This document shows positions 28,155 through 44,286 of a stretch of DNA of 63,871 bases, piece after piece (positions within the stretch are counted from its first letter, which is position 1; every line of letters starts with the position of its first letter). Origin of the DNA: Tannerella sp. (GTDB lineage Bacteria > Bacteroidota > Bacteroidia > Bacteroidales > Tannerellaceae); the NCBI RefSeq assembly GCF_030528505.1, contig NZ_JAUMYS010000006.1:1-63871 (forward strand). The letters are read 5' to 3'. The translations under genes were made by a program, and so were the position numbers. The notes under the pieces are model-generated. The model was not told where the DNA came from, did not search any database, and saw nothing but the letters and a program-made list of their open reading frames with translations.

Positions 28155-28544
28155 ATGGATCGGTATTTGATAATAAAAACGAGAGATGAATTATTGCGCA
28201 TACGCATCAGCAACATACTTTATCTCGAAGCAGATCGGAATTATACGAAACTGCTATTGACGGAAGGCATTCAGTTTACATTTGCAATCAATATCGGAAA
28301 AATCGAAGGCATGTTGGATACGCAAGCCTCAGACTCCAGAGCACAGCTCGTTCGAGTCGGCAAAAGCTATATCATCAATAAAAATTATATTTTGCAAATT
28401 AACTTACCGAAACAAAAATTGCTGCTGCTCGTACCCGGCTCAAAACCTCGCGAACTAATTGTACCCAGAGAACCGTTAAAATCGCTAAAAGAGAGTCTGG
28501 AACAGGATGCACTAATCACAACAAAAAGTAAAGACACACGATGA
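28155..28544 (+). CDS. Stand-alone LytTR DNA-binding protein
   Basis: A 129-residue protein that is almost entirely a LytTR domain: RDELLRIRISNILYLEADRNYTKLLLTEG, FAINIGKIEGML, VRVGKSYIINKNYILQI, all typical of the LytTR fold. There is no receiver domain, so no His-kinase input; activity may be controlled by partners or phosphorylation. It has its own promoter 37 bases upstream and overlaps the following FHA gene by four bases (ATGA), which couples their translation. It is the likely regulator of the island that follows. Confidence 0.85.
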   Translation: MDRYLIIKTRDELLRIRISNILYLEADRNYTKLLLTEGIQFTFAINIGKIEGMLDTQASDSRAQLVRVGKSYIINKNYILQINLPKQKLLLLVPGSKPRELIVPREPLKSLKESLEQDALITTKSKDTR

Positions 28545-29194
28545 TCATCCGGATCGGTAAAGCAAACGACAATGACTTTGTAGTAGACGATGTACACGTC
28601 AGCCGGTATCACGCACGGTTGATGCGCGATGAAAACGGCCATCTTTTTATTGAAGACATAGACTCCGCGAACGGCACCTATGTCAATGGAGACCGTGTCA
28701 TCAAGAAAAAAGTGACGCCTTCTGATGTCATTACGCTCGGCGATCATTATGTTCTCGATATCATGGCCGTATTGAAATCGGACAACGATTACAGCGAAGA
28801 ATTTGCCGCCTTAAAGCCCGTCTATGAAAGATATGTCAAAGAAAAAATACGAATCCAGTCAACGAATCAGTTCAAAACACGTATTTTCCAATCCCTGCCT
28901 TTTGCTTTTGTCGGGGTGGCAGGACTCATTATCGGCGTCCTTGGGAAACATCATCAAGGCGTCTTTATCGGCAGTTTGACACTGGCTATATGTGCACCCA
29001 CTTTGGGTATTTACCTTGGAGCCAGACAGTCCGCTAAAATCCCGGCTTTGATGCAACGCCTATCCAATCAATTCAAAATCGATTACGTCTGCCCTAAATG
29101 CGGGACGTTTCTGGGCGAAATTCCCTGGGAATCTTTAGCCAATAAAAAGAGATGCTCCGTCGGCTCATGTCGTGCGAAATGGGTGAAAAAATAG
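28541..29194 (+). CDS. FHA-domain membrane protein with zinc-ribbon tail
   Basis: A 217-residue protein. The FHA domain occupies residues 1-75: IIRIGKANDNDFVV (the Arg/Gly phosphothreonine pocket), VSRYHARLMRDENG (Ser-Arg-His), SANGTYVNG. Two hydrophobic helices follow at about residues 110-155 (FVGVAGLIIGVLG and FIGSLTLAICAPTLGIYL). The C-terminus has a C4 zinc ribbon, YVCPKCGTFLGEI...CSVGSCRAKW. FHA domains bind phosphothreonine peptides, so a kinase substrate is the likely ligand. It starts within the stop of the LytTR gene. Confidence 0.85.
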   Translation: MIIRIGKANDNDFVVDDVHVSRYHARLMRDENGHLFIEDIDSANGTYVNGDRVIKKKVTPSDVITLGDHYVLDIMAVLKSDNDYSEEFAALKPVYERYVKEKIRIQSTNQFKTRIFQSLPFAFVGVAGLIIGVLGKHHQGVFIGSLTLAICAPTLGIYLGARQSAKIPALMQRLSNQFKIDYVCPKCGTFLGEIPWESLANKKRCSVGSCRAKWVKK

Positions 29195-29205
29195 AATGAT
29201 AAATG

Positions 29206-29221
29206 CAAAACAATAGTTTTG
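29206..29221 (+). other. Small hairpin after the first FHA gene
   Basis: CAAAAC (29206-29211) AATA GTTTTG (29216-29221), without a T run. It may attenuate read-through into the next promoter unit. Confidence 0.3.
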
Positions 29222-29285
29222 TACAATAATCTCGTTGCTTCGTACGTTAATGGGAAAGGATGAAATCACATCAGATTTTAATACG

Positions 29286-29293
29286 TATCTTTG
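29286..29293 (+). promoter_or_regulatory. Promoter of the acidic protein-FHA-PP2C unit
   Basis: TATCTTTG at 29286-29293, an exact TAnnTTTG match, 32 bases before the start of the 73-residue acidic protein. No clear -33 TTTG. Confidence 0.6.
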
Positions 29294-29325
29294 TGACAGA
29301 ATAACAAATAAAAAACAGAAAAGAG

Positions 29326-29547
29326 ATGGATAATGAACATACATTCGTAACGATAGACAACGACGTCAATGAAGTCTTGTTGATCGACGTCAATGAAACA
29401 CCCGCGAGTGATTTCGTAATGGTGGATGAAGTGTTGGACGACACGGACTTCATCACGCTTTCCGACGATGTGGAAATCGCATCTGACGACGACATCATCG
29501 ACATCACTTCGGGAATGGATGACGCAGACGTTTCAATCATTTTATGA
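29326..29547 (+). CDS. Very acidic 73-residue protein without Lys or Arg
   Basis: The 73 residues contain 18 Asp and 5 Glu, a single His and no Lys or Arg. Thr/Ser residues sit in acidic contexts (VDEVLDDTDFITL, VEIASDDDIIDIT). It has no signal peptide or membrane segment. It follows its own promoter by 32 bases and overlaps the next FHA gene by four bases (ATGA), so it is translated together with it. I do not recognise a family. By context it could be a substrate for the kinase and a ligand for the FHA proteins, or a decoy/DNA-mimic; this is inference. Confidence 0.8.
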   Translation: MDNEHTFVTIDNDVNEVLLIDVNETPASDFVMVDEVLDDTDFITLSDDVEIASDDDIIDITSGMDDADVSIIL

Positions 29548-30050
29548 TTCCGGTCAAATGCCCGCATTGTAAAGTCGGTTTAAAAGTTGATGAAACAAAA
29601 ATTCCCGAAGGAATTGCTTCATTTAAATGCCCGAAATGCCGGCAGGATGTTCCGGTTTCGTATTTAAAAAACGAACAGCCGGCCGACTCCGAAACCGTTT
29701 TGATCCGGCCCATCCGAAAAGGATGTGGCCGGTTAATTGTAGTTGCCAATCCGGACACCTTGGAACAAACGTTTCCTTTGCGTGAAGGAATCTTTATCGC
29801 AGGACGCAAAGCGTCTGTGTCGGAAGCGACGATCCGTATCGAAACCGGCGATAAAGAAATGAGCCGCAATCATATGCGGATAGAAGTAAAAAAAGACAAT
29901 CGGGGAAACTACATCCATATGCTCTCCGATTACCAGAGCAAGAATCATACGCAATATAACGGCAGATGTTTAGATAAAGGTGAAGTAGTTGTGCTGAAAG
30001 ATAACGACGAAATCAAAATCGGACATACGCTCGTTCGCTTTAAGGAATAA
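29544..30050 (+). CDS. Zinc-ribbon plus FHA-domain cytoplasmic protein
   Basis: A 168-residue protein. Residues 1-35 form a zinc ribbon: VKCPHCKVGL...FKCPKCRQDV. Residues 75-165 form an FHA domain: FIAGRKASVSEATIRI, EMSRNHMRIEV, SDYQSKNHTQYNG, DNDEIKIGHTLVRF. The Ser-Arg-Asn-His motif and the GxxxS/T strand are normal. No membrane segment. It overlaps the acidic protein gene by four bases and is 20 bases before the PP2C gene. Confidence 0.85.
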   Translation: MIPVKCPHCKVGLKVDETKIPEGIASFKCPKCRQDVPVSYLKNEQPADSETVLIRPIRKGCGRLIVVANPDTLEQTFPLREGIFIAGRKASVSEATIRIETGDKEMSRNHMRIEVKKDNRGNYIHMLSDYQSKNHTQYNGRCLDKGEVVVLKDNDEIKIGHTLVRFKE

Positions 30051-30070
30051 CTCATCTTTCTTTTAACGCC

Positions 30071-30844
30071 ATGAATATAACGCTCGGAATGCCCTACGCC
30101 ATTTGTGAAAAAGGAAGAAGACCGAACAACGAAGATGCGATCTTTCCCTCCTCCTCTCAAACGATCGAACGTTCACAGAGGCTCTTTGTCGTATGCGATG
30201 GTGTTGGCGGTGCCGAAAAAGGCGAGATCGCCAGTTCGCTGGCATGTGAATCTTTTCAAATTTTCTTTTCCACTTTTATGGAAGAAGATGACACAGAAAA
30301 TCTGATTCGCAAAGCTGTCCGATATACCGAAGTGCGTTTCGAAGAATACATCTCGACCCATCCCGAAGCAGAGGGAATGGCCACCACACTCACGATGCTT
30401 TACTTTGGCGACGAAGGAGTTACGTCCGCACATATCGGTGACAGTCGGATTTATCAGTTCCGAAACGGAAAGGCTGTTTTTCAGACGGAAGACCATTCAC
30501 TCGTCAATTTCTGGGTAAAGACAGGTAAAATCACCCAAGAAGAAGCCTTGCGTCATCCTCAGAAAAACATCATCACCCGAGCGATCACAGGCACAGCCAA
30601 TCCGACCGAAGCAGACATCACATTTCTGACGGATATTCAGCCGGACGATTGTTTTCTCATGTGTACGGATGGAGTGACCGAATGTCTGTCGGACAACACA
30701 CTATCTTCTCTTTTCAGCAGACCTTTCATGCCTGAAAGGGTAAAAGATTCCCTTGTAGAAGCATGTGATGAAAAAGCTCATGACAATTATTCTTTCTACC
30801 TTTTGCCTGTCTTAAAAGTGCAAAATTCATCGAGTTACAAGTAA
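30071..30844 (+). CDS. PP2C-type Ser/Thr protein phosphatase
   Basis: A 257-residue PPM/PP2C phosphatase. Motifs: GRRPNNEDAIF (Asp ligand), FVVCDGVGGAEKGEIAS (metal-binding Asp and GG), GMATTLTMLYFGDEGVTSAHIGDSRIYQFR, EDHSLVN, FLMCTDGVTECL (Asp) and the C-terminal DNYSFYLLPV. All metal ligands of the core are present. It removes phosphate from Ser/Thr and should reverse the kinase encoded 73 bases downstream. No transmembrane segment. It ends the acidic protein-FHA-PP2C transcription unit. Confidence 0.93.
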   Translation: MNITLGMPYAICEKGRRPNNEDAIFPSSSQTIERSQRLFVVCDGVGGAEKGEIASSLACESFQIFFSTFMEEDDTENLIRKAVRYTEVRFEEYISTHPEAEGMATTLTMLYFGDEGVTSAHIGDSRIYQFRNGKAVFQTEDHSLVNFWVKTGKITQEEALRHPQKNIITRAITGTANPTEADITFLTDIQPDDCFLMCTDGVTECLSDNTLSSLFSRPFMPERVKDSLVEACDEKAHDNYSFYLLPVLKVQNSSSYK

Positions 30845-30881
30845 TTTATCCTACCTTTTTTATTCTTTCGTTAAAAAAATG

Positions 30882-30889
30882 TATCTTTG
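30882..30889 (+). promoter_or_regulatory. Promoter of the kinase operon
   Basis: TATCTTTG at 30882-30889, matching TAnnTTTG, 28 bases before the kinase start; no clear TTTG upstream. Confidence 0.6.
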
Positions 30890-30917
30890 TTGCGAAATCT
30901 GATTACTGTAAGTAATT

Positions 30918-32792
30918 ATGAATTTGCCGAACGGATATTGTTTGCAAAATGGCAAGTATTGTCTAACGAAAGTCATCGGCCAGGGAGGATTCGGAATCAC
31001 CTATTTGGGCGAGTGGAACACTGAGGTCAAAGGTGAACTCGGAGCGGTAGAAACAACCGTGCCCATTTGTATTAAAGAATACTTCTTTAAAGACTATTGC
31101 TTTAGAGATGAGACGACATTCGAAGTCAAAGTACATTCCGGAACCGGTAAAATCCTTTTTGATAAGTTCAAAGAGCGACAAATCGAAGAAGCCAAAATTC
31201 TTTCCGAAGTCCATCATCCGTATATCGTCAATGTGTTGGAAGTGTTTGAAGAGAACAACACGGCCTATATCGCGATGGAGCATATATCCGGCTGTTCATT
31301 GAAATCCATGTTGAGCGAGCAGACCGTGTTGCCGGAATCGAAAGTGCTCAAGTACGTCGCACAAATCGGGAAGGCGTTGGAGTTTGTACATCAGAAAAAT
31401 ATCCTGCACCTCGATATCAAGCCCAACAATATCTTAATCGACAAGAACGACAATGCCCGATTGATCGATTTTGGCGTCAGTAAGCGTTACGATCTCGAAG
31501 AACAGGAGGCATGCACAACGACGCTTACGCTATCAAAAGGATTTGCGTCGATCGAACAGTACGACGATGAGGGTACGGTGAATTTCTCCCCCTGTCCGGA
31601 TGTTTATTCCTTGGGGGCAACCATGTATAATCTGCTGACCGGCGTAATCCCGGTCGAATCGATTTTAAGGGCGACAAAGCCTTTGATTCATCCTTCGGAA
31701 CTAAATAAACAGCTCTCTCCGAAAACGGAAGCCGTCGTGCTGAAAGCGATGCAAGTGAATCCGAAAGATCGCTATCAGTCGATAAAAGAAATGATGGATG
31801 CTTTGGATATCCCACCATCGATCGAAAACAAAGAAAACATAAGCTTTCCGAAAAAGAAGGAGTACGAAGCAGAACCATCTGTCGATGAGAATGAAAATAC
31901 CCAGTTGATCGCAACTTCTCGCAAGACTGGATCGACTGACAATGAAGAAACTGTATCTATCCCTTCGAAAACGAAGCCATCCAAACAACGGCGTACAAAA
32001 AGTAAACGACGGATTTTGTTACCTTTGTTAATTTTTGCGTTCGCCGGTGTAGGTTGGGCTGTATCATACTTGTTCAGTTCGAACGATAAAAGCACAACGC
32101 TTATCAACAACAGGTTAGTGGCTGATGCCTCGATACAACAAGGCGAACCGATCATTCCGACCGATCTCCAACCTCAGACGGAAATGCCATCGACGGAACC
32201 ATCTCCGTCCGAAGCGACAAATGAAATCCATAAAGAGGAGCGAACGGAGAAAAAAGAAGGAAACGAAACGGCTCTTCCGGTAAAGAAAGAAGCGAAACCG
32301 GAGAAAACGACGACAAGCAAAGAATCGGATAAGAAGGCATCTGAAGAAGCGTCAAAAACAAAGAAAACGGAAGAAGAGGCCGAACGGATGAATGCGAATT
32401 ATGCGGCATTGTTGGCGTCCGGGAAAATGAAAATGGATCAAGGTCATTATGTTGAGGCAAAAGCTGACTTTACAAAAGCCAAAGAAATAAAGGTTACCGA
32501 AGACGTCGTTCGTTTATCGTTAGCTTGTGAGGAGAAAATAGAAGAAAAAAATATCGCCGCTCGGATCGCGTTGTATGAACCGGGAATGACTTTTGGCAAC
32601 TACACGATTGTCCGGAAGAAACAAAACGGACGTTATGGGGCAATTGATGCCAAAGGAATCGAACGTATCCAATGCATTTACCTGAGTGTGGGACGGTCGG
32701 AAAGCGGGCGGGCTTTTGAGCGCGAAGACCATCTGTACGATATTTATAACTCAAACGGAGTCTTGGTCGGGAGAGGACTTACGACCTACTAA
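30918..32792 (+). CDS. Membrane-anchored Ser/Thr protein kinase
   Basis: A 624-residue Hanks-type kinase. N-terminal catalytic domain (about 13-297): GQGGFGITYL loop, Lys53 in CIKEY, HLDIKPNN (Asp166, Asn171), DFG Asp184, and the SIEQYDDEG activation-segment end. The residue before the catalytic Asp is Leu, so it is a non-RD kinase. Next a Ser/Thr/Lys-rich linker, a single transmembrane helix at about 366-386 (LLPLLIFAFAGVGWAVSYLF), a Glu/Lys-rich stretch and a TPR-like pair (NYAALLASGKMKMDQGHYVEAKADFTKAKEI). The last 60 residues are in the periplasm. The operon continues with two envelope proteins (gaps 18 and 14), so it may sense or control envelope components. Confidence 0.93.
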   Translation: MNLPNGYCLQNGKYCLTKVIGQGGFGITYLGEWNTEVKGELGAVETTVPICIKEYFFKDYCFRDETTFEVKVHSGTGKILFDKFKERQIEEAKILSEVHHPYIVNVLEVFEENNTAYIAMEHISGCSLKSMLSEQTVLPESKVLKYVAQIGKALEFVHQKNILHLDIKPNNILIDKNDNARLIDFGVSKRYDLEEQEACTTTLTLSKGFASIEQYDDEGTVNFSPCPDVYSLGATMYNLLTGVIPVESILRATKPLIHPSELNKQLSPKTEAVVLKAMQVNPKDRYQSIKEMMDALDIPPSIENKENISFPKKKEYEAEPSVDENENTQLIATSRKTGSTDNEETVSIPSKTKPSKQRRTKSKRRILLPLLIFAFAGVGWAVSYLFSSNDKSTTLINNRLVADASIQQGEPIIPTDLQPQTEMPSTEPSPSEATNEIHKEERTEKKEGNETALPVKKEAKPEKTTTSKESDKKASEEASKTKKTEEEAERMNANYAALLASGKMKMDQGHYVEAKADFTKAKEIKVTEDVVRLSLACEEKIEEKNIAARIALYEPGMTFGNYTIVRKKQNGRYGAIDAKGIERIQCIYLSVGRSESGRAFEREDHLYDIYNSNGVLVGRGLTTY

Positions 32793-36221: not shown

Positions 36222-38834
36222 TCAGAAGCGGAAAAATACACTGAACAGGACATTACGCGGTCGAATAACGTACGACTTGCTGATGGCCGAAAGCTCGTTG
36301 TAGACGGTGTATGCGTATGTTTCGCGGTCGAAGATGTTTTTTACGAGCAGATTCAACTCCCATCCTTTGGGCAAACTGCAAGTCAACGTGGCATCGGCCA
36401 GAAAGAGATGTTTCGACACGTCTCTGGTGATCTCGTTGTAATAATGCTCTCCGACGAGTTGCAGACGCCATCTTTTTCCGGGCGTAACATGGCAGGAAAA
36501 CGATTGCCACAGGTTACTGTACGACGACTCTGCCGCCGAGTTTTTCATCCGTAACCGGTAATGCGAGAAAGAAAGTTCGTAGGCTACGTTGCACCACGTT
36601 GCGAAACGGCTGGTGATCTTAGGGGTGATCTGCCAGTCTTTCGTCGTGTAAGGCAGTTCTTTCCCCTGTTGCGAGCGGGCACCGTTAAATACGACGAATG
36701 ACGTGCGAACGGATACGATACCGTTTATCGGCGCGATACCTTTGCTGACGCTTCCGTCGAGCATCCATGTGTCGGAGCGGTAATCCTTGCGCACGAACGT
36801 ATTCAGCAGGTATGCGCCATGAAAATAGCGGTTGGAAAGATAAGGATTGTAACTCCAAGAGCGTGCGACATCCGCACTCGCAAAGAAGGCTTTCAGCGGC
36901 TGACGATAGTGGATGCCGAAATGTACCGTCCGGCTGTTTCCGCTCGTATAGTCGATCCATCCTCTTGTCAGATGACGATAATTGTTCAGGATCAGGCCTT
37001 CGTAGAAAAACTGCTCCGGAAGCGCGCTTTGCGCATATCGCCCCGAAAGAGAAGCCGACAGTCTCGACGTGAAGTGATAGCGCATGTATAGACGAGGCGA
37101 GAGAAAAAACTTCTCCCGATTATGCTTTCTGTCCGTCAGGTTATCCGTATAACGATACGGGACGAACGAAGCAGGCATATCGCATTTCGCCTCAAAACCG
37201 TTTTGCCGGAACTCGACTTCGGGCGAAACATAGAGGTTCATATAACGCATCGAGACATCGTTTTTCATTTGCCCGAGGGTGTCGGAAACACCCGTAAGTT
37301 CACCCGTCAATGAGCGGATCACTCCTACTATCCCTAATTTCATGGAGAGAGTCAGAGGCCTGACATAAAAAGACAAGGCGGTATTTGTGTTCGTGTAAAA
37401 AGCCGATGCTTCAAGATGCTGATGTTGAGTTCCGTTTGTTCTTACGACACTGAGATGCTGGGGTTTCGTTTGATACAAGTTATACGAATTCACCGTGTAA
37501 GCCCGTTTGCCATGACGTTTAATGATTTCCAGATCGTTCGAGAATTGGCGGTGCGGGATCGTGGCCGTTTGTCTGTTGGGAAATGTGCCTGCGACTCCCA
37601 TGTCCGTATCGTCCCAGCGCAAGTCGGTAAGGAGTCGGTTCTTGAAATAATATCCGGAGGTATTGGCCGTAAGCGTCAGCTGTCCGGAGAGTCGATGCTG
37701 CTTCTCCGTCGCGTGTTCGATTGCTTCGGTCACGATGGTCGAATCTTCGAGAAAGTGCGAGGTGCGAGTTTCGTTGTCCGAAGTCAATCGATTGTTGAGA
37801 TACGTGATCTGCGCCATCAGATCGTAATGTTTCCCGAGCGACCACAAGTTGTTGGTGTTGAACTGATGCGTCTTATTGAAACGGCTTCGGTCGCTGTCGA
37901 TTTCGCGGAGATAATCGGGCTTGACCGAAAGATAATCACGCAACCGATAGCTCTTCCCGAACGGTGTAAGAATATCGTCGATAGTGAACAGGCTCGTCTC
38001 GCTAACAAGGTCGACGCCCGTATTATTCGATTTGAAGGTATTGAGCGTCTGCGATTTCTTTTTGAAGCGCATCAACGCCACCTCGGCGTGCCAAAGAAAC
38101 GGACTGAACCCGGCGCCCGCCTTGGCCGTCCCGACCCATCGGGCTTTGGCATCTTCTTTCAGGCGAATATTGATGGCCGGATTCTGTGAGAACGAAAGGT
38201 CTTCGAGCGCTTTAATCGGCTGATGATTCTCCATAACCTCCACGCTTCCCACATCTTTCTGGTGGATGTTGTTCGTGGCGATGCCGTACAGTCCGCCGAG
38301 CATATCTTTCCCTTCGATGTAAAACTTATTAATCGATACCCCGTTGTATTTGATCGCACCGCTTTTTTCGACTTCGATTCCGGGCATTTTCTTCAACACA
38401 TCGGCCAGACTCCGGTCCTGAACGTCGGCGAAGTTGGAGACGATATACGTTACCGTATCGCCACGCTGGTGAATGCTTGGCGCTTTGACAAGGACTTCTT
38501 TCAACGGTGTCGCTTTCTCCGTCATCGCCGCGTCGTAGAATTTGCGTCCGGCTTCGAGCGGAAAAATTAACGGAGCGTATCCCATCATCGAGAAGTGCAA
38601 TACATGACTCGCGGGAAGCGCTTTGATCGAAAGTTCAAACATCCCTTCCGTCGATGTCTGTGTAAACTTCACTACCTTATTTTCGCCTGCCGGACGGATA
38701 GTTACCAATACCCCCGCAAGTGGCTGGCCGGAAGCCTTGTCGGTAACCTTCCCCGACAACACCGTCAGGGACTGGGCTGTCAGCCCACCGCTCATCAGAA
38801 ACAACACGGTTGACAAAAGGATGACTCGTTTCAT
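36222..38834 (-). CDS. TonB-dependent receptor of the GLPGLI cluster
   Basis: An 870-residue outer membrane protein: signal peptide MKRVILLSTVLFLMSGGLTAQ, a carboxypeptidase-regulatory-like domain (VLSGKVTDKASGQPLAGVLVTIRP, about 24-110), a plug (TYIVSNFADVQDRSLADVLKKMPGIEVEKSG...VMENHQPIKALEDLSF) and a C-terminal barrel ending SYVIRPRNVLFSVFFRF. It resembles the outer membrane beta-barrel family OMP_b-brl_3 rather than SusC, and there is no SusD partner. It is 33 bases after a GLPGLI gene and ends the GLPGLI operon (41430 to 36222). By analogy it could transport or export a peptide. Confidence 0.88.
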   Translation of the reverse strand: MKRVILLSTVLFLMSGGLTAQSLTVLSGKVTDKASGQPLAGVLVTIRPAGENKVVKFTQTSTEGMFELSIKALPASHVLHFSMMGYAPLIFPLEAGRKFYDAAMTEKATPLKEVLVKAPSIHQRGDTVTYIVSNFADVQDRSLADVLKKMPGIEVEKSGAIKYNGVSINKFYIEGKDMLGGLYGIATNNIHQKDVGSVEVMENHQPIKALEDLSFSQNPAINIRLKEDAKARWVGTAKAGAGFSPFLWHAEVALMRFKKKSQTLNTFKSNNTGVDLVSETSLFTIDDILTPFGKSYRLRDYLSVKPDYLREIDSDRSRFNKTHQFNTNNLWSLGKHYDLMAQITYLNNRLTSDNETRTSHFLEDSTIVTEAIEHATEKQHRLSGQLTLTANTSGYYFKNRLLTDLRWDDTDMGVAGTFPNRQTATIPHRQFSNDLEIIKRHGKRAYTVNSYNLYQTKPQHLSVVRTNGTQHQHLEASAFYTNTNTALSFYVRPLTLSMKLGIVGVIRSLTGELTGVSDTLGQMKNDVSMRYMNLYVSPEVEFRQNGFEAKCDMPASFVPYRYTDNLTDRKHNREKFFLSPRLYMRYHFTSRLSASLSGRYAQSALPEQFFYEGLILNNYRHLTRGWIDYTSGNSRTVHFGIHYRQPLKAFFASADVARSWSYNPYLSNRYFHGAYLLNTFVRKDYRSDTWMLDGSVSKGIAPINGIVSVRTSFVVFNGARSQQGKELPYTTKDWQITPKITSRFATWCNVAYELSFSHYRLRMKNSAAESSYSNLWQSFSCHVTPGKRWRLQLVGEHYYNEITRDVSKHLFLADATLTCSLPKGWELNLLVKNIFDRETYAYTVYNELSAISKSYVIRPRNVLFSVFFRF

Positions 38835-38867
38835 GTTTTTCGTCCAAATTAGTCGGGTAGGTACTAC

Positions 38868-39719
38868 CTATTTATAGTCGCGCTCGATCAGATCACGGTA
38901 TACGGGTTTATCTTCTCCCATCGACAAACCATATTCGGCACTCATTAGGCTACCCGAATGGTTCAAATCAAAAAACTTTGCCTTCTGAAATTCTTTTCTT
39001 TGCACAGATTTGTAGACAGCCTTTTCGTTTAAAGGCAATGAGAAAACGATGGGTTCGTCCGCTGTTTTTTCGATCCCCATCATCGTAAAATGATATTGAT
39101 AGCCTCGGTCATACACTTCCAGGATCAGCCCCGGCAAGCCGCCGAACTTCCAAGGCCCGTCGCTGATGGGAATATCCGGAGTGAACCATGCTGTCCAATG
39201 TCGTCCGCGAAAGTCGCATTCGGCTTGCTGGCAAACATAGCCTAACACTTCTTTTGTGCTGTCTGTCATCTGCCACGGTTGGGCGTTCAATGTGTCTTTA
39301 TACGACACCCAATCTCCCCGTATGACATCTGTAACCGTTATTTCCTTTTCGGGATAGTTCTTGTACACGATTGTTCTGGAACGGCTATGCGAAAAACTAT
39401 TCATAAAGCGTGTACGGTTCCGATGCTTCTTCCAATCTTCCAACGCTTTGTTAAACATCTGTTTCCACTTTTCTTGCCCTTCGGGAGAACTTTTTAATGA
39501 GTCGTTCTGAAAGGTATAATAGCTGTACCATTTCGAGTTATTTTTCCCGATTTGGAGAATAAATAGGTCTTCAAATACAGCGATATCCAGCGTGTCTTTT
39601 AAATACGTATGACGATACTGACATTTCAGAAAAGCGTCGTCCAACACTTTTTCCGTTCGCTGTGCAAACGCGTATCCAACAAACAGTAATCCTAACAAGC
39701 AGCAACCCATTTTTTTCAT
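38868..39719 (-). CDS. GLPGLI family protein (intact copy A)
   Basis: A 283-residue exported protein with signal peptide MKKMGCCLLGLLFVGYAFAQ. Family core: CxxxCDFRGRHWTAWFTPDIPISDGPWKFGGLPGLILEVYDRGYQY with GLPGLI at 194-199 and two conserved Cys (163 and 168) that may form a disulfide. Its C-terminus is IERDYK. GLPGLI (TIGR01200) is a Bacteroidetes-wide family of unknown function, named after this motif. It lies 14 bases after copy B and 33 before the TonB receptor. Confidence 0.92.
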   Translation of the reverse strand: MKKMGCCLLGLLFVGYAFAQRTEKVLDDAFLKCQYRHTYLKDTLDIAVFEDLFILQIGKNNSKWYSYYTFQNDSLKSSPEGQEKWKQMFNKALEDWKKHRNRTRFMNSFSHSRSRTIVYKNYPEKEITVTDVIRGDWVSYKDTLNAQPWQMTDSTKEVLGYVCQQAECDFRGRHWTAWFTPDIPISDGPWKFGGLPGLILEVYDRGYQYHFTMMGIEKTADEPIVFSLPLNEKAVYKSVQRKEFQKAKFFDLNHSGSLMSAEYGLSMGEDKPVYRDLIERDYK

Positions 39720-39733
39720 ATCCTTCGCTTTTT

Positions 39734-40594
39734 TTATTGATAATCACGTTCTTTAAAATCGTAGAAAAGCCTCCTTGGCTCACGTTGCACATACGTTGAT
39801 TTCAGCCCTTTTTGCATAATTTCTTGGATAAGCTCGATCTCATTCACGGGCTTTCCGGAGATAAAGGCGCGTTGGGATTGAAGAAATCTTTTACGGTCTG
39901 TTCGGAGAAACGCTGTTTCTTCAAAATTGTAAAACGTTACCGGCCGGAGGTTGTGCTTATCGATTCGTACAGCCATGTAATGATAATCATCGTTCCGGTC
40001 GTATGCTTCCAAAATAAGTCCCGGAAGACCACCTAATTTCCAAGGACCACTGCTAACAGGAAGATCCGCCGTAAACCAAGCGATCCAATGCCGTCCGCGA
40101 AAATTGCATGCAGCCATTCGACACGGATACCCCAGTATGTGCTTGACTGAATCCTTAACCGTCCATTGCAGCGGGAGGTATTCGTCATCGTACTTGTATC
40201 CGATCACGAACCGACGACTTGTTACAGTGATTTTGCCGGTCGGATAGTTCGTATAGAGATAATCGTAAGTAGTCCTTATTTGTGGCCTTTTCGAATGATC
40301 CCGCATACGAAGAGCCTCTAATGTCAGCTCCTCGGCCTTTTCCCGCCCTTGAGGGTCGTTCCAAAGCGAATCATGATAAAATGTATGATAACTGAAAAAC
40401 TGATTAACGTTTTCCCCGATCCTCAGAATCATTGAATCAGTCTCCATCTTATTTTTCCTGAGGGTATCCTGCTGCATCGTGTGCCGGTAATGCACTTCCA
40501 ATACTGCTGGTTCAAGAAGTTGTTCCTTTTGGGAAAACAAAACTGATGGAAAAAGCATGAACAAAATAAAAAAGAAACACTTCATACAAATCAT
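39734..40594 (-). CDS. GLPGLI family protein (intact copy B)
   Basis: A 286-residue exported protein, signal peptide about MICMKCFFFILFMLFPSVLFSQ, with a start 4 bases inside the preceding gene (ATGA). The family core is GYPCRMAACNFRGRHWIAWF...GPWKLGGLPGLILEAYD, GLPGLI at 189-194, with the conserved Cys pair. The N-terminal domain (VLEVHYRHTMQQDTL) resembles the other copies but is divergent. A degraded partial copy of its 5' end lies at 42221-42308, evidence of a past duplication. Confidence 0.92.
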   Translation of the reverse strand: MICMKCFFFILFMLFPSVLFSQKEQLLEPAVLEVHYRHTMQQDTLRKNKMETDSMILRIGENVNQFFSYHTFYHDSLWNDPQGREKAEELTLEALRMRDHSKRPQIRTTYDYLYTNYPTGKITVTSRRFVIGYKYDDEYLPLQWTVKDSVKHILGYPCRMAACNFRGRHWIAWFTADLPVSSGPWKLGGLPGLILEAYDRNDDYHYMAVRIDKHNLRPVTFYNFEETAFLRTDRKRFLQSQRAFISGKPVNEIELIQEIMQKGLKSTYVQREPRRLFYDFKERDYQ

Positions 40595-41430
40595 TTATAG
40601 TCGCGCTCCATTAGATCATATCGCATGATGTTTGCCGGTTCGCCATTACTCAGGTCAATTCCCGTTTCCATTTGGATATAACCGTTCATATCCATCAGAT
40701 AACGCTTCTTGGCCTTTAGAAAGTCAATGCGGTTTGTTTGCTCGAACTTCTTACTGCTACCATATGTCTGACTGAAAACGATTGGCTCGTTATCGACCTG
40801 CTGTAAACCGACGATGGTAAAATGATATTGATGTCCCCGATCATACACTTCCATAATGAGTCCCGGCAAGCCGCCAAACTTCCAGGGGCCATCACTGACA
40901 GGAATATCCGGAGTGAACCATGCCGTCCAGTGTCGTCCGCGAAAATAACATACGGCTTGTTGACATGCATAGTCAAGGATCGTTTTTGTGCTGTCTGTCA
41001 TTTGCCACTCCTGTGCATGCAGTTTGTCTTCGTACATATAATCTTGTAATGACAATCCGTCGGTAACAGTCATCTTGCCTTGCGGATAATTTTTGTAAAC
41101 GTAGGTTTCCATTCGTTTGTAGGGAAAGTTTGTGGCTTTAATACCATCTTTTTCAATTGCCTTAGTAAATAATTCGCGCCAAACTTTTCGTCCATCAGGA
41201 GTGGAACGTAACGAATCACTCTGAAAAGTATAGTAACTAAAACATTTCGAAACTACCCCTCCGATTTGAAGATCGATTAAATCATCTCTAACTTCATTCT
41301 TTATCGTATCAAATTTCCATGTATACCTGTATTGGCATTTCAAGACACAATCATCTAATACTTGTGAATTTATCTCTATACTTAATGTTGTAAGCAAAAA
41401 AACAGTAATGCCAAGAATTATCAGTTTCAT
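40591..41430 (-). CDS. GLPGLI family protein (intact copy C)
   Basis: A 279-residue protein starting MKLIILGITVFLLTTLSIEINSQ; the TTG codon 15 bases upstream is an unlikely start. Core CQQAVCYFRGRHWTAWFTPDIPVSDGPWKFGGLPGLIMEVYDRG; C-terminus MERDYK. Its last 160 residues are almost identical to those of the disrupted copy at 42311-43345, while the N-terminal halves differ, a mosaic pattern typical of gene conversion. It heads the operon of three GLPGLI genes and the TonB receptor, overlapping copy B by four bases. Confidence 0.92.
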   Translation of the reverse strand: MKLIILGITVFLLTTLSIEINSQVLDDCVLKCQYRYTWKFDTIKNEVRDDLIDLQIGGVVSKCFSYYTFQSDSLRSTPDGRKVWRELFTKAIEKDGIKATNFPYKRMETYVYKNYPQGKMTVTDGLSLQDYMYEDKLHAQEWQMTDSTKTILDYACQQAVCYFRGRHWTAWFTPDIPVSDGPWKFGGLPGLIMEVYDRGHQYHFTIVGLQQVDNEPIVFSQTYGSSKKFEQTNRIDFLKAKKRYLMDMNGYIQMETGIDLSNGEPANIMRYDLMERDYK

Positions 41431-41496
41431 GATAAGTGTAATCAATTTAATTTATTGCAAACATTTAAATTCCTGTGTTTTTAATAGCGAATTTTC

Positions 41497-41529
41497 AAAA
41501 AAGGCGTGAGGGAGAACTCACGCCTTTTT
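41497..41529. terminator. Strong bidirectional terminator after the double-glycine peptide
   Basis: AAAAAGGCGTGAG, six-base loop, CTCACGCCTTTTT: a perfect 13-base stem with A run and T run on its sides. On the minus strand it closes the peptide gene, whose stop is 3 bases before; it isolates the peptide from the GLPGLI operon. Confidence 0.9.
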
Positions 41530-41531
41530 AA

Positions 41532-41696
41532 TTATCTGCAATGTGCAGCCCAAGCATTAGTTGCTGCTTCTCTTTGATGGTTATTCCATGTTGACCAATT
41601 GCTGTCAATGAGCATGTTTAATGTTCCACAATACTCTTCAACAGAAATACCACCTTTAATCTCGCTCATTTCCTGTAAATTTAATTCTTCTAACAT
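41532..41696 (-). CDS. 54-residue double-glycine leader peptide (putative secreted peptide precursor)
   Basis: Found by reading the minus strand between two GLPGLI genes. The product starts MLEELNLQEMSEIKGG, the leader pattern (LxxxEMxxIxGG) of Bacteroidales natural-product and bacteriocin-type precursors cleaved by C39-peptidase ABC exporters. The 38-residue core has Cys23 and Cys53, three Trp and is close to neutral. Its stop is three bases before a perfect terminator, so it is its own short transcript, a plan typical of highly expressed peptides. No exporter, radical-SAM enzyme or immunity gene is in the window. The GLPGLI and TonB proteins around it may be its partners. Possible roles: bacteriocin, signal or structural peptide; none is proven. 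Confidence 0.75.
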   Translation of the reverse strand: MLEELNLQEMSEIKGGISVEEYCGTLNMLIDSNWSTWNNHQREAATNAWAAHCR

Positions 41697-41891
41697 AATG
41701 GTAAAATTTTAATTTTCTTTTCTACTCGTTTCGCTTTTCGAAATCCGCGTCTCTTGTTTCATACAGCTTTCCGAAGAGATTTTATCAGAATCCGTCTCCG
41801 GTAGAGAATTTGCTGCACTGCCTTTCTCACTACTCAGCTTCGTTTGGGGCAACTTCAGTGTGATATGCTTTACATCCCGATCACGTCGGGT

Positions 41892-41921
41892 TTGCATATT
41901 GCTTGTTTCAACTATCTTTGC
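41892..41921 (+). promoter_or_regulatory. Plus-strand promoter of a possible small RNA
   Basis: TTTG at 41892-41895 (18 bases) TATCTTTG at 41914-41921. Reads away from the peptide gene, towards the terminator at 41979-42005. Confidence 0.6.
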
Positions 41922-41927
41922 AGCGCC

Positions 41928-42006
41928 TTTTCTTGCTTGTTGGTGATACATCGTGTAAGCTGTTTCTCGTTTGTTTCGCTTTCCTGGCGAGGGAAGGCTT
42001 TTTTAT
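41928..42006 (+). ncRNA. Candidate small RNA, about 78 nt
   Basis: Begins about seven bases after the promoter and ends in an intrinsic terminator: GCTTTCCT (41979-41986), loop GGCGA, GGGAAGGC (41992-41999), TTTTTT; two of eight pairs are G.U. No start codon with a sensible frame. The end resembles the terminator at 35987-36014, at the far end of the GLPGLI cluster. The exact ends are inferred. Confidence 0.5.
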
Positions 42007-42108
42007 TTGAAGTGGTAATTCTGAGCTACCAGCTTCATTATATGTTCTATGTTTCTATATAATATTCTTTTTTTATGCAAAGCTATACGATTTCTTCTTT
42101 ACAGGCAT

Positions 42109-42160
42109 TACACAAAAGTGTAATTTTTTCGTATTTGGTCAAAAATTACACTTTTGTGTA
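42109..42160. repeat. Perfect 20-base inverted repeat
   Basis: Arms 42109-42128 and 42141-42160 are exactly complementary; loop of 12. Each arm contains ACAC-N4-GTGT, itself a dyad. It may form a cruciform or bind a regulator. A related ACACTT...AAGTGT pair is at 36170-36211. Confidence 0.75.
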
Positions 42161-42220
42161 TTAAATAGATATGCATACGGTTTCTTTTTTTATCTTTCCC
42201 CTAAAAAGGCTTCTCTCGAT

Positions 42221-42308
42221 TTTTCCTTCCCCCTTGAGGGTCTTTCCAATGGGAAAACAAAACAGATGGAAAGAGTATAAACAAAATAAAAAAGAGAAAT
42301 TTCATACA
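42221..42308 (-). pseudogene. Remnant of a GLPGLI gene 5' end
   Basis: The segment matches copy B: 42221-42249 resembles 40335-40364 and 42249-42308 resembles 40529-40588, with the intervening 164 bases deleted. It lies next to the copy C-like gene at 42311 as copy B does to copy C, so the two-gene unit was duplicated and the second gene lost. Confidence 0.7.
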
Positions 42309-42310
42309 AA

Positions 42311-43345
42311 TCATTTATAATCAAGCTCTATTAAATCATATCGCATGATGTTTGCCGGTTCGCCATTGCTCAGGTCAATTCCCGTTTCCATTTGGATATA
42401 GCCGTTCATATCCATCAGATAACGCTTCTTGGCCTTTAGAAAGTCAATGCGGTTTGTTTGCTCGAACTTCTTACTGCTACCATATGTCTGACTGAAAACG
42501 ATTGGCTCGTTATCGACCTGCTGTAAACCGACGATGGTAAAATGATATTGATGTCCCCGATCATACACTTCCATAATGAGTCCCGGCAAGCCGCCAAACT
42601 TCCAGGGGCCATCACTGACAGGAATATCCGGAGTGAACCATGCCGTCCAGTGTCGTCCGCGAAAATAACATACGGCTTGTTGACATGCATAGTCAAGGAT
42701 CGTTTTTGTGCTGTCTGTCATTTGCCACTCCTGTGCATGCAGTTTGTCTTCGTACATATAATCTTGTAATGACAATCCGTCGGTAACAGTCATCTTTCCT
42801 TGCGGATAGTTTTTGTAAACATAGGTTTTCATTCGTTTATGCGGATAATTACCTTTCATAAAATCCCCATTTTTCATTGCCTTATTAATCATTCCACCGA
42901 TAATTTTATCACTATTTGGCAGGGCAGACAAGGAATCAACCTGATTACTATAATAACTCAAGCATTTGGAAACGGTTCTTCCTATTTGCAATATTAATAA
43001 ACCCGGATTCCGCATTGAGTTATTTTTCTTAGTATAAAATCAATTTCAAATACACTTATAATATGTTGATATATAAGTTTTTAAACAATGTTTTTTTGAA
43101 AAAATCTCTAACGCTACGCATTAGAAAAATATATGTATTATGTTTTATTAATCAGGTAGTTATAGTTGTTTTTTATTCTATTGCGTAATCTGGGATAAAT
43201 CGTCTTTCGTCTTGCCTCTCAACGTATCCTTTATTTGGATTAATTGATAATGACAACGAAGATAAGCCTGATCCAGTTCTTTTTCTTGAGCAGAACCCGA
43301 TATAAAAGAGCAGAACAATACAATGCAGATAAATATATTTTTCAT
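42311..43345 (-). pseudogene. GLPGLI gene copy D, split by a MITE-like insertion
   Basis: The first part (43345-43196) encodes MKNIFICIVLFCSFISGSAQ... up to KDD; the second (43001 down to 42311) encodes the rest, including GLPGLI and YDLIELDYK. A 194-base insert (43002-43195) stands between them. Removing it together with one TAAA copy joins the frame to DDLLILQIGRTVSKC, which matches copy C (DDLIDLQIGGVVSKC), giving a 278-residue protein. The 3' 480 bases are nearly identical to copy C. In its present form translation ends shortly after the insertion boundary. Confidence 0.85.
43002..43195. mobile_element. MITE-like element, 194 bases
   Basis: Flanked by TAAA at 42998-43001 and 43196-43199 (direct target repeat). 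Ends are imperfect inverted repeats: the left begins CCCGGATTCCGCATTGAG; the right, read inwards, TCCCAGATTACGCAATAGA (12 to 13 of 15 matching in the core). AT-rich inside with no open frame. A mobilising transposase is not in the window. Confidence 0.7.
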
Positions 43346-43443
43346 AGATATGGTATGTATAATGACATTCAATTAAGTTACAATCCATCTCGTTTTTCAC
43401 TGAAAAGGTCGCCTCATTAGAATTTGCATGAGTTAAGCAAGGG

Positions 43444-44286
43444 TTAATCTTTATAATCCAACTCGATATAATCATAATGTTTTGCCTTCGGATAGCTGTT
43501 TGAAGAGAGTCCGACTCTTGCCATTTCACTTTCTGTTATGCTCTCCACTGTTTTCCCCATTTTAGACTTTATAAATTCCTTACGTTCGATCTTTTGAACC
43601 GTTCGTGGAATATTTATTTCAATATCTTCTTCAACTTTTTGAAAACCTGTCAATTCGAAACTGTATTGCTTTTTCGTATCATGTATTTTTGTTATGAGTC
43701 CGGGTAAACCATAAAACTTCCACGGCCCTTCACTGATCGGTATTTCCAACGTAAACCAGGCAATCCAATCTCTTCCCCTGTAATGACACGTTGCCTTTTG
43801 AGATACATATCCCAAAATCGTTGTCGTATCATGTTGTATCTCCCAATTTTGAGGATGTAGCTCATCTGTATATACAAATGAATAAATGCTGATGTTATCT
43901 TTTACCCGGATTTCATTTTTCCCGTAATCTTTATATAAATCCGACGCAAAAGCCCCATGATGAAAGGGATTGTTGCGCACATGGGAAATATCCCCCGTGC
44001 TTCTCATTGCCTCAATACTCTCTTTCACAGAGGAGTTAAATAATTTCCTGTATAAATCGGGAGCATGAGTTTTAAGGGAATCAAGATAAAACTTTTGATA
44101 CGTAAAACCTTTCGTTATTTTATCTCCGATTTGAACAACATAGATTTACGGTCTGAAATATTCGAAAGCAAGGGTATCCTGTAAAACTTCTAACCGATAT
44201 GCACATTTATATCGCGATCTCTCTTGTGCATATCCTGTTTGAACCAGAAAAAGAAAAGCAATAATAAAAAATCTAAAAACGTTCAT
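43444..44286 (-). pseudogene. GLPGLI gene copy E, one in-frame stop
   Basis: The reading frame runs from ATG 44286 (MNVFRFFIIAFLFLVQTGYAQ, a signal peptide) to DYIELDYKD without a frameshift, but a TAA at 44148-44146 interrupts it after 46 codons (…FEYFRP stop). Downstream, ILGYVSQKATCHYRGRDWIAWF...GLPGLITKIHD is intact. A single base change would restore a 280-residue protein. One of the conserved Cys is Ser (GYVSQKATC), so the Cys pair is also lost, consistent with relaxed constraint. Confidence 0.85.

Follow-up and report, generated by a model that had tools for sequence, protein, structure and literature searches.

An array of GLPGLI genes on the minus strand of a Tannerella contig (positions 36222-44286 of contig C47, the whole 63.9 kb of which we call the window, in a 2.9 Mb genome of 113 contigs) encloses a gene for a 54-residue peptide precursor with a double-glycine (GG) leader. 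This open reading frame (ORF) is a genuine orphan GG precursor, and, across the order Bacteroidales, the association of GG precursors with GLPGLI genes and with a related outer-membrane gene is real, but restricted to a minority of cases. For the window itself, our best explanation, on which we judge the arguments to be about evenly balanced, is that the precursor lies beside a GLPGLI and outer-membrane module that would act as its extracytoplasmic partner; the functional link between peptide and GLPGLI proteins in the window is a proposal and is unproven. An earlier reading of this DNA, made from its letters only (the sequence-only reading), had suggested a secreted-peptide system here and, taken as a whole, is partly supported by our results.

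The precursor gene and its upstream DNA

The precursor (41532-41696, minus strand) consists of a 16-residue leader, MLEELNLQEMSEIKGG (41649-41696), and a 38-residue core (41535-41648), followed by the stop codon (41532-41534). The leader carries L at -12, E at -8, M at -7, I at -4 and G at -2 and -1, in agreement with what we take to be the GG-leader pattern, the conserved positions -4, -7, -8 and -12 all being in place. Under a strict form of this pattern (written after inspecting the window leader and two other leaders), the ORF is the sole match in the window, where 0.02 are expected by chance (100 first-order Markov shuffles), and the GG precursor called by the sequence-only reading is thus upheld. 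The core has two cysteines, a net charge (K+R minus D+E) of -2 and a mean hydropathy of -0.59. The terminator which had also been assigned to the peptide was recovered as a hairpin with a 13-bp stem behind the gene (41498-41529, minus strand; -19.2 kcal/mol, z -7.1), none of 200 shuffles being equally good; this hairpin is absent from the listing of the consensus scan.

The best evidence that the peptide gene is real lies in the DNA upstream of it. A stretch at 41706-41760 (minus strand), whose 3' end is 9 nt before the peptide start codon, recurs on contig C22 of the same genome, with 100% identity over 55 nt (C22:15643-15697) and 86% over 61 nt (C22:9491-9553), and in genome G026, with 93% over 69 nt; a weaker likeness extends further upstream. 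Among 41 Tannerella genomes, the 30-nt core of this stretch occurs without mismatch at four places (in the window, twice on C22 and in G026). Two of the three other copies of the stretch (C22:9491 and G026) lead into other GG precursors, at loci which both carry a radical-SAM gene and a C39 exporter, and behind the remaining C22 copy, which lies at the contig end, are a 19-codon ORF and a SPASM-domain fragment. Because the stretch is 86-100% alike and the ORFs behind it are unrelated, these copies suggest an exchangeable cassette of which the stretch is a part, and, since the stretch is common to the genome's own radical-SAM peptide locus on C22, the peptide probably arrived as such a recombined cassette. 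When this C22 locus (L033) is compared with its T. forsythia counterpart (L036, on contig C100), the flanks and the C39 exporter are conserved and the precursor, radical-SAM and barrel genes between these differ, the C22 locus having additional barrel genes and a second, broken unit. A 24-nt core upstream of the peptide is also present in Tannerella forsythia ATCC 43037 (NZ_JUET01000101.1). Judging from the 90.8% identity between the window genome and a T. forsythia genome across a common 5.2 kb stretch, the host is a Tannerella close to, yet distinct from, T. forsythia.

Association across the order

GLPGLI matches were found at 75 places in 35 of 148 genomes of the order. We retrieved 40 loci that take in 60 of the 67 places other than the genome's own (the remaining seven being in G071, twice, G072, G118, G122, G181 and G186), together with 19 control stretches. 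A leader scan gave three strict and six loose matches in the 40 GLPGLI loci (expected 0.0 and 3.0), and no strict and two loose matches in the control loci (expected 0.33 and 2.67); by itself this is weak evidence, and two of the three strict matches (L154 and L176) look like chance. Five of the 40 loci (L143, L148, L149, L150 and L152) hold precursors recognized by the TIGR04149 model. Since four related precursors had first been picked by eye, the test was reversed using the curated TIGR04149 model, which, run over 393 genomes of the order, matched 46 places in 35 of them (in 30 genomes above cut-off), all 46 being examined. At eight of them (six loci, in 5 of the 35 genomes and in five families) a GLPGLI gene lies within 351 bp, and all eight also have a related outer-membrane protein; at the other 38, no such protein was detected at the search threshold.

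The chance of finding a GLPGLI gene within 1.5 kb is about 0.0005 per place, for a base rate of 75 GLPGLI places in 148 genomes with an assumed mean genome of 3.6 Mb. The binomial tail, which treats places as independent, comes to 1.9e-18 when counted by place and about 6e-11 by genome; when the genomes that gave rise to the idea (G087, G155 and G165) are removed, 3 of 41 places (p 1.7e-6) and 2 of 32 genomes (p 2.5e-4) are left. The sequence-only reading had proposed a test for enrichment of small GG-leader genes near GLPGLI genes. A general enrichment of this kind is not supported, with one such gene in 28 genus loci and TIGR04149-type precursors in 5 of the 40 order loci; what is supported is a minority association in the order (8 of 46 TIGR04149 places).

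In three full clusters (L149, L152 and L261, the last from G210) the GLPGLI gene stands between precursor and maturase, and in L149 and L152 the complete order is outer-membrane protein, precursor, GLPGLI, TIGR04148 maturase, TIGR04150 pseudo-radical-SAM protein and C39 exporter (families assigned by model for L149 and by likeness for L152). L150 holds two precursor-GLPGLI pairs. In genome G097, within a GLPGLI array (L143:9781-10761, minus strand), a TIGR04149-type precursor above cut-off continues in frame, with no stop codon between, into a GLPGLI gene, so that the two look fused; the second precursor of this locus is degenerate. Looking upstream of 105 GLPGLI ORFs in 69 loci (one of which, L212, had been found via a precursor), we saw a GG-like ORF in 12 cases, where shuffles gave 1.45; by eye, seven of the 12 are convincing. 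A profile built from five GLPGLI-locus precursors matched 28 places, five of which are the seeds, and 3 of the 23 non-seed places have a GLPGLI gene at most 1.5 kb away, two of the three belonging to a single array.

The gene following the precursor was inspected at 44 of the 46 TIGR04149 places. Nine were chosen for Pfam, giving four 6-bladed beta-propellers, three PDZ proteins, one aspartyl protease and one without a match; most of these nine look secreted or lipid-anchored (N-termini judged by eye), and at the remaining places the following gene is of another kind or none could be assigned. GLPGLI is therefore one of several proteins found in that place. Three stretches (L258, L259 and L262) each carry two units of a precursor with a propeller or PDZ protein, so that one-to-one pairing of a precursor with the next gene is not special to GLPGLI.

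C39 exporters in the genus

Matches to C39 occur in 16 of the 41 Tannerella genomes, and the window's own genome has two, on contigs C12 and C22 and off the window contig, as had been anticipated from the lack of an exporter in the cluster. Both have GG peptides nearby. The C22 locus combines a C39 ABC exporter with a radical-SAM/SPASM enzyme and barrel proteins; at the C12 locus the exporter is accompanied by HlyD-like and TolC-like proteins, three GG ORFs and a two-component pair. The last 13 leader residues of the window precursor agree at nine positions with those of a C12 leader, and likewise with those of two leaders from T. forsythia, and by this likeness the C12 system is the better candidate exporter. 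Over the 38 genus C39 loci analyzed (435.6 kb; 40 of 42 C39 places, G010:C98 and G001:C5 being left out), 28 strict GG ORFs were found in 14 loci, against 0.67 expected. Histidine kinase and response regulator genes occur near several GG-peptide clusters (L101:10538-12564, L143:149-2366 and L150:7964-10451), and of these pairs that of C12 (L101) was checked by Pfam.

The GLPGLI array and its outer-membrane gene

Read 5' to 3' on the minus strand, the region 36222-44286 comprises GLPGLI genes A and B, a remnant resembling the start of gene D, a repeat element, the shared 5' stretch, the 54-residue precursor, its terminator, GLPGLI genes C, D and E and an 870-residue outer-membrane-type protein. 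The precursor is directly upstream of the intact gene C (40591-41445, with a TTG start at 41445 or an ATG at 41430; TIGR01200 191.8 bits), which is followed by the equally intact genes D (39734-40594; 186.5 bits) and E (38868-39719; 202.7 bits, cut-off 50). Further upstream are the broken copies: B (42311-43372), interrupted into pieces at 43178-43372 and 42311-43015, and A (43444-44286), with an in-frame TAA at 44146-44148. Of the GLPGLI genes among which the sequence-only reading had placed the peptide, three are thus intact, B is in two pieces and A has an internal stop. The interruption of gene B (43015-43200) is about 190 nt without GLPGLI likeness.

Genes B and C share a 395-nt run free of mismatches (42402-42796 versus 40682-41076), and the remnant at 42250-42310 (minus strand) is 89% alike over 61 nt to the gene D start (40530-40590). 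An assembly artefact was considered as the source of this duplication and seems unlikely, because the remnant is only 89% alike. The intergenic repeat element (42076-42191, no strand assigned) contains a 52-nt inverted repeat (42109-42160), recurs with 95% identity over 116 nt on another contig of the genome (C100:848-963) and shows likeness over 52-60 nt in Tannerella genomes G022, G024 and G030.

All five GLPGLI products, two of them from broken genes, match TIGR01200 at 158-203 bits, and four match PF22252 (the N-terminal domain of PNGase F-II) above the Pfam cut-off; gene E gave a weak match to PDB 4r4x/4r4z (E 0.025) and a poor AlphaFold model (mean pLDDT 50.8). Their N-termini look signal-peptide-like by eye. 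Pfam annotates the GLPGLI family (PF09697) as of 'unknown function', and our literature search (without subscription papers and preprints) found nothing joining GLPGLI with a bacteriocin and no mention of PF09697. GLPGLI genes appear among the PhoP-regulated genes of Riemerella (PMC9603813), the accessible part of which does not state their function.

The gene at 36222-38834 (minus strand) had been named a TonB-type receptor. Its N-terminal CarboxypepD_reg domain is above the Pfam cut-off, but the Plug match is below it (14.9 versus 23.9 bits) and Pfam gave no barrel match, so that neither of the domains by which a TonB-dependent receptor would be recognized, Plug and barrel, is above cut-off. 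Relatives of this protein are present in 27 of 28 Tannerella GLPGLI loci, 36 of the 40 order GLPGLI loci and none of the 19 control loci.

Within the window, Rfam and tRNA scans gave no matches, a promoter scan gave 21 matches against 19.1 expected (no excess), and the TIGR04148 maturase had no match at E up to 1e-6. Away from the array, the ORFs at 28541-32792 resemble, by eye, FHA-domain proteins, a PP2C phosphatase and a Ser/Thr kinase.

Proposed mechanism and alternative explanations

In the mechanism that we propose, one of the two C39 exporters would act in trans on the precursor, which probably came in with its cassette, cutting it behind Gly16 and exporting the peptide. The GLPGLI proteins would be the secreted partners that meet the exported peptide outside the inner membrane, whether for escort, processing, sensing or self-protection; given their signal-peptide-like starts, they would meet only the exported form. 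Expression, cleavage, export and contact of the window peptide with the GLPGLI proteins are steps that we infer. Elsewhere in the order such modules are coupled, in a minority of cases, to GG precursors, in the order precursor, GLPGLI, radical-SAM maturase, pseudo-radical-SAM protein and C39 exporter. A broader reading, which we hold tentatively and at somewhat under even confidence, would make GLPGLI proteins dedicated extracytoplasmic partners of GG peptides, with a fixed outer-membrane companion, and the window an independent pairing in which the GG peptide is an unrelated one that leaves the cell through an exporter acting in trans; we propose that GLPGLI would then hold the post-precursor place which in other clusters belongs to beta-propeller, PDZ or aspartyl-protease proteins. 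The readings discussed here overlap, and our confidences in them do not sum to one.

Several results weigh against a partnership in the window. The main weakness is the position of its GLPGLI proteins in a tree of 87 GLPGLI domains: a single 16-row set (97/92) contains all but one of the 13 rows from precursor loci, the exception being that of G210, and the window's five rows belong to a different set, of 21 rows (94/87), where none of the others has an upstream GG ORF. Given this separate position, the window pairing, if it works, would have arisen on its own. In the genus, the 28 GLPGLI loci (404.7 kb, covering all 42 GLPGLI places) hold one strict GG ORF, that of the window itself (expected 0.33), and an orthologous cluster in G030, with four GLPGLI genes and the outer-membrane gene tightly packed, lacks the peptide, in a genome with no C39 match at threshold. 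We accordingly reject the idea that GLPGLI loci are enriched in GG ORFs throughout the genus: GG peptides of Tannerella track C39 exporters and not GLPGLI genes. In the order, 38 of the 46 TIGR04149 places have no GLPGLI gene within 5 kb or up to the contig end. As to the peptide, a homologue search at E 0.1 in 61 genomes returned only itself, and one in the 41 Tannerella genomes itself and four weak matches (E 0.16-0.58); in species genomes and viral contigs, 19 and 4 pattern stretches, respectively, yielded none confirmed, plasmids gave no match, and NCBIfam gave none at E up to 1, whether to TIGR04149 or to any other model. The conservation in related strains to which the sequence-only reading had looked was thus not borne out, neither at species level nor in the G030 array. 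As an observation on its own, another Tannerella genome, G002, has a GLPGLI gene, an outer-membrane gene and a TIGR04150-like pseudo-radical-SAM protein (in two ORFs) consecutively (L100:491-4887, minus strand); although we found no precursor at this locus, it is a vestige within Tannerella of the association seen in the order.

Much of this evidence would suit a chance landing, in which a cassette of 5' stretch, precursor and terminator recombined into a decaying, duplicated GLPGLI array whose genes are irrelevant to a peptide that may still work with the C12 or C22 exporter. We regard this as a real possibility, at roughly one third of full confidence: the repeat element, the shared stretch and the duplicated and broken GLPGLI copies surround the peptide, and the peptide-free orthologous array, the single GG ORF among 28 loci and the different branch of the tree all agree with it. 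Against it, the recurrent order is matched: an intact GLPGLI gene comes next after the precursor, in the same orientation, and the cluster includes an outer-membrane gene.

That the peptide is a class II bacteriocin of the bacteroidetocin type seems unlikely. Its 16-residue leader is within the 15-16 range given for bacteroidetocins in the accessible part of PMC6671954, and the core is small, with two cysteines; the same source, however, describes for bacteroidetocins A and B four cysteines, 42 residues and net charges of +2 and +6 (against two, 38 and -2 here), and a region with genes for a C39 exporter, a membrane protein and a thiol oxidoreductase, none of which was seen beside our ORF when the neighbouring ORFs were inspected by eye. 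Very unlikely is a non-working gene, that is, a chance ORF or a dead precursor: no homologue was found, the adjacent GLPGLI copies are broken and so is the unit behind the second copy of the 5' stretch on C22, but ORFs of this kind are rare in shuffled windows, the shared stretch, which is followed by different ORFs at its different sites, stops just short of the start codon, and the terminator is strong.

The link of some GLPGLI members to radical-SAM/C39 clusters provides a concrete hypothesis for a family of unknown function, and L149, L152 and L261 are complete clusters where it can be tested. The association also bears on the variable gene directly after GG precursors, which in one Bacteroides cluster encodes a lipoprotein; there, according to the part of PMC4573289 available, the lipoprotein and then two radical-SAM proteins come after a TIGR04149 precursor.

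Comparison with known systems

One close likeness is to the TIGR04149/TIGR04148/TIGR04150 clusters, which have a GG leader, C39 export and a precursor directly before a secreted-type gene, some of them (L149, L152 and L261) with GLPGLI right after the precursor; they differ in that the window peptide is unmatched by the model and its cluster has neither maturase nor exporter. Clusters for ribosomally synthesized and post-translationally modified peptides in Bacteroidales are described, in the accessible text of PMC10352776, as comprising a peptidase-containing ATP-binding transporter, a radical-SAM and a pseudo-radical-SAM protein, a membrane fusion protein and an outer-membrane protein, with no immunity protein detected there. 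The class II-type GG peptides of Tannerella C39 loci (C12 and, in T. forsythia, L102) have the similar leader tail noted above; unlike them, the window peptide has no exporter beside it and a hydrophilic core, the C12 cores having hydropathies of 0.37, 0.85 and 1.35. Compared by their described features, bacteroidetocins (class IIf) are alike in leader length and in having a small Cys-bearing core, and the window core departs from them in its cysteine number, its negative charge and the fact that no adjacent thiol oxidoreductase gene was seen. On the side of the proposed partner, PNGase F-II is likened to the GLPGLI products by its N-terminal domain (PF22252), but not by its glycanase domain, none of the products matching one in Pfam.

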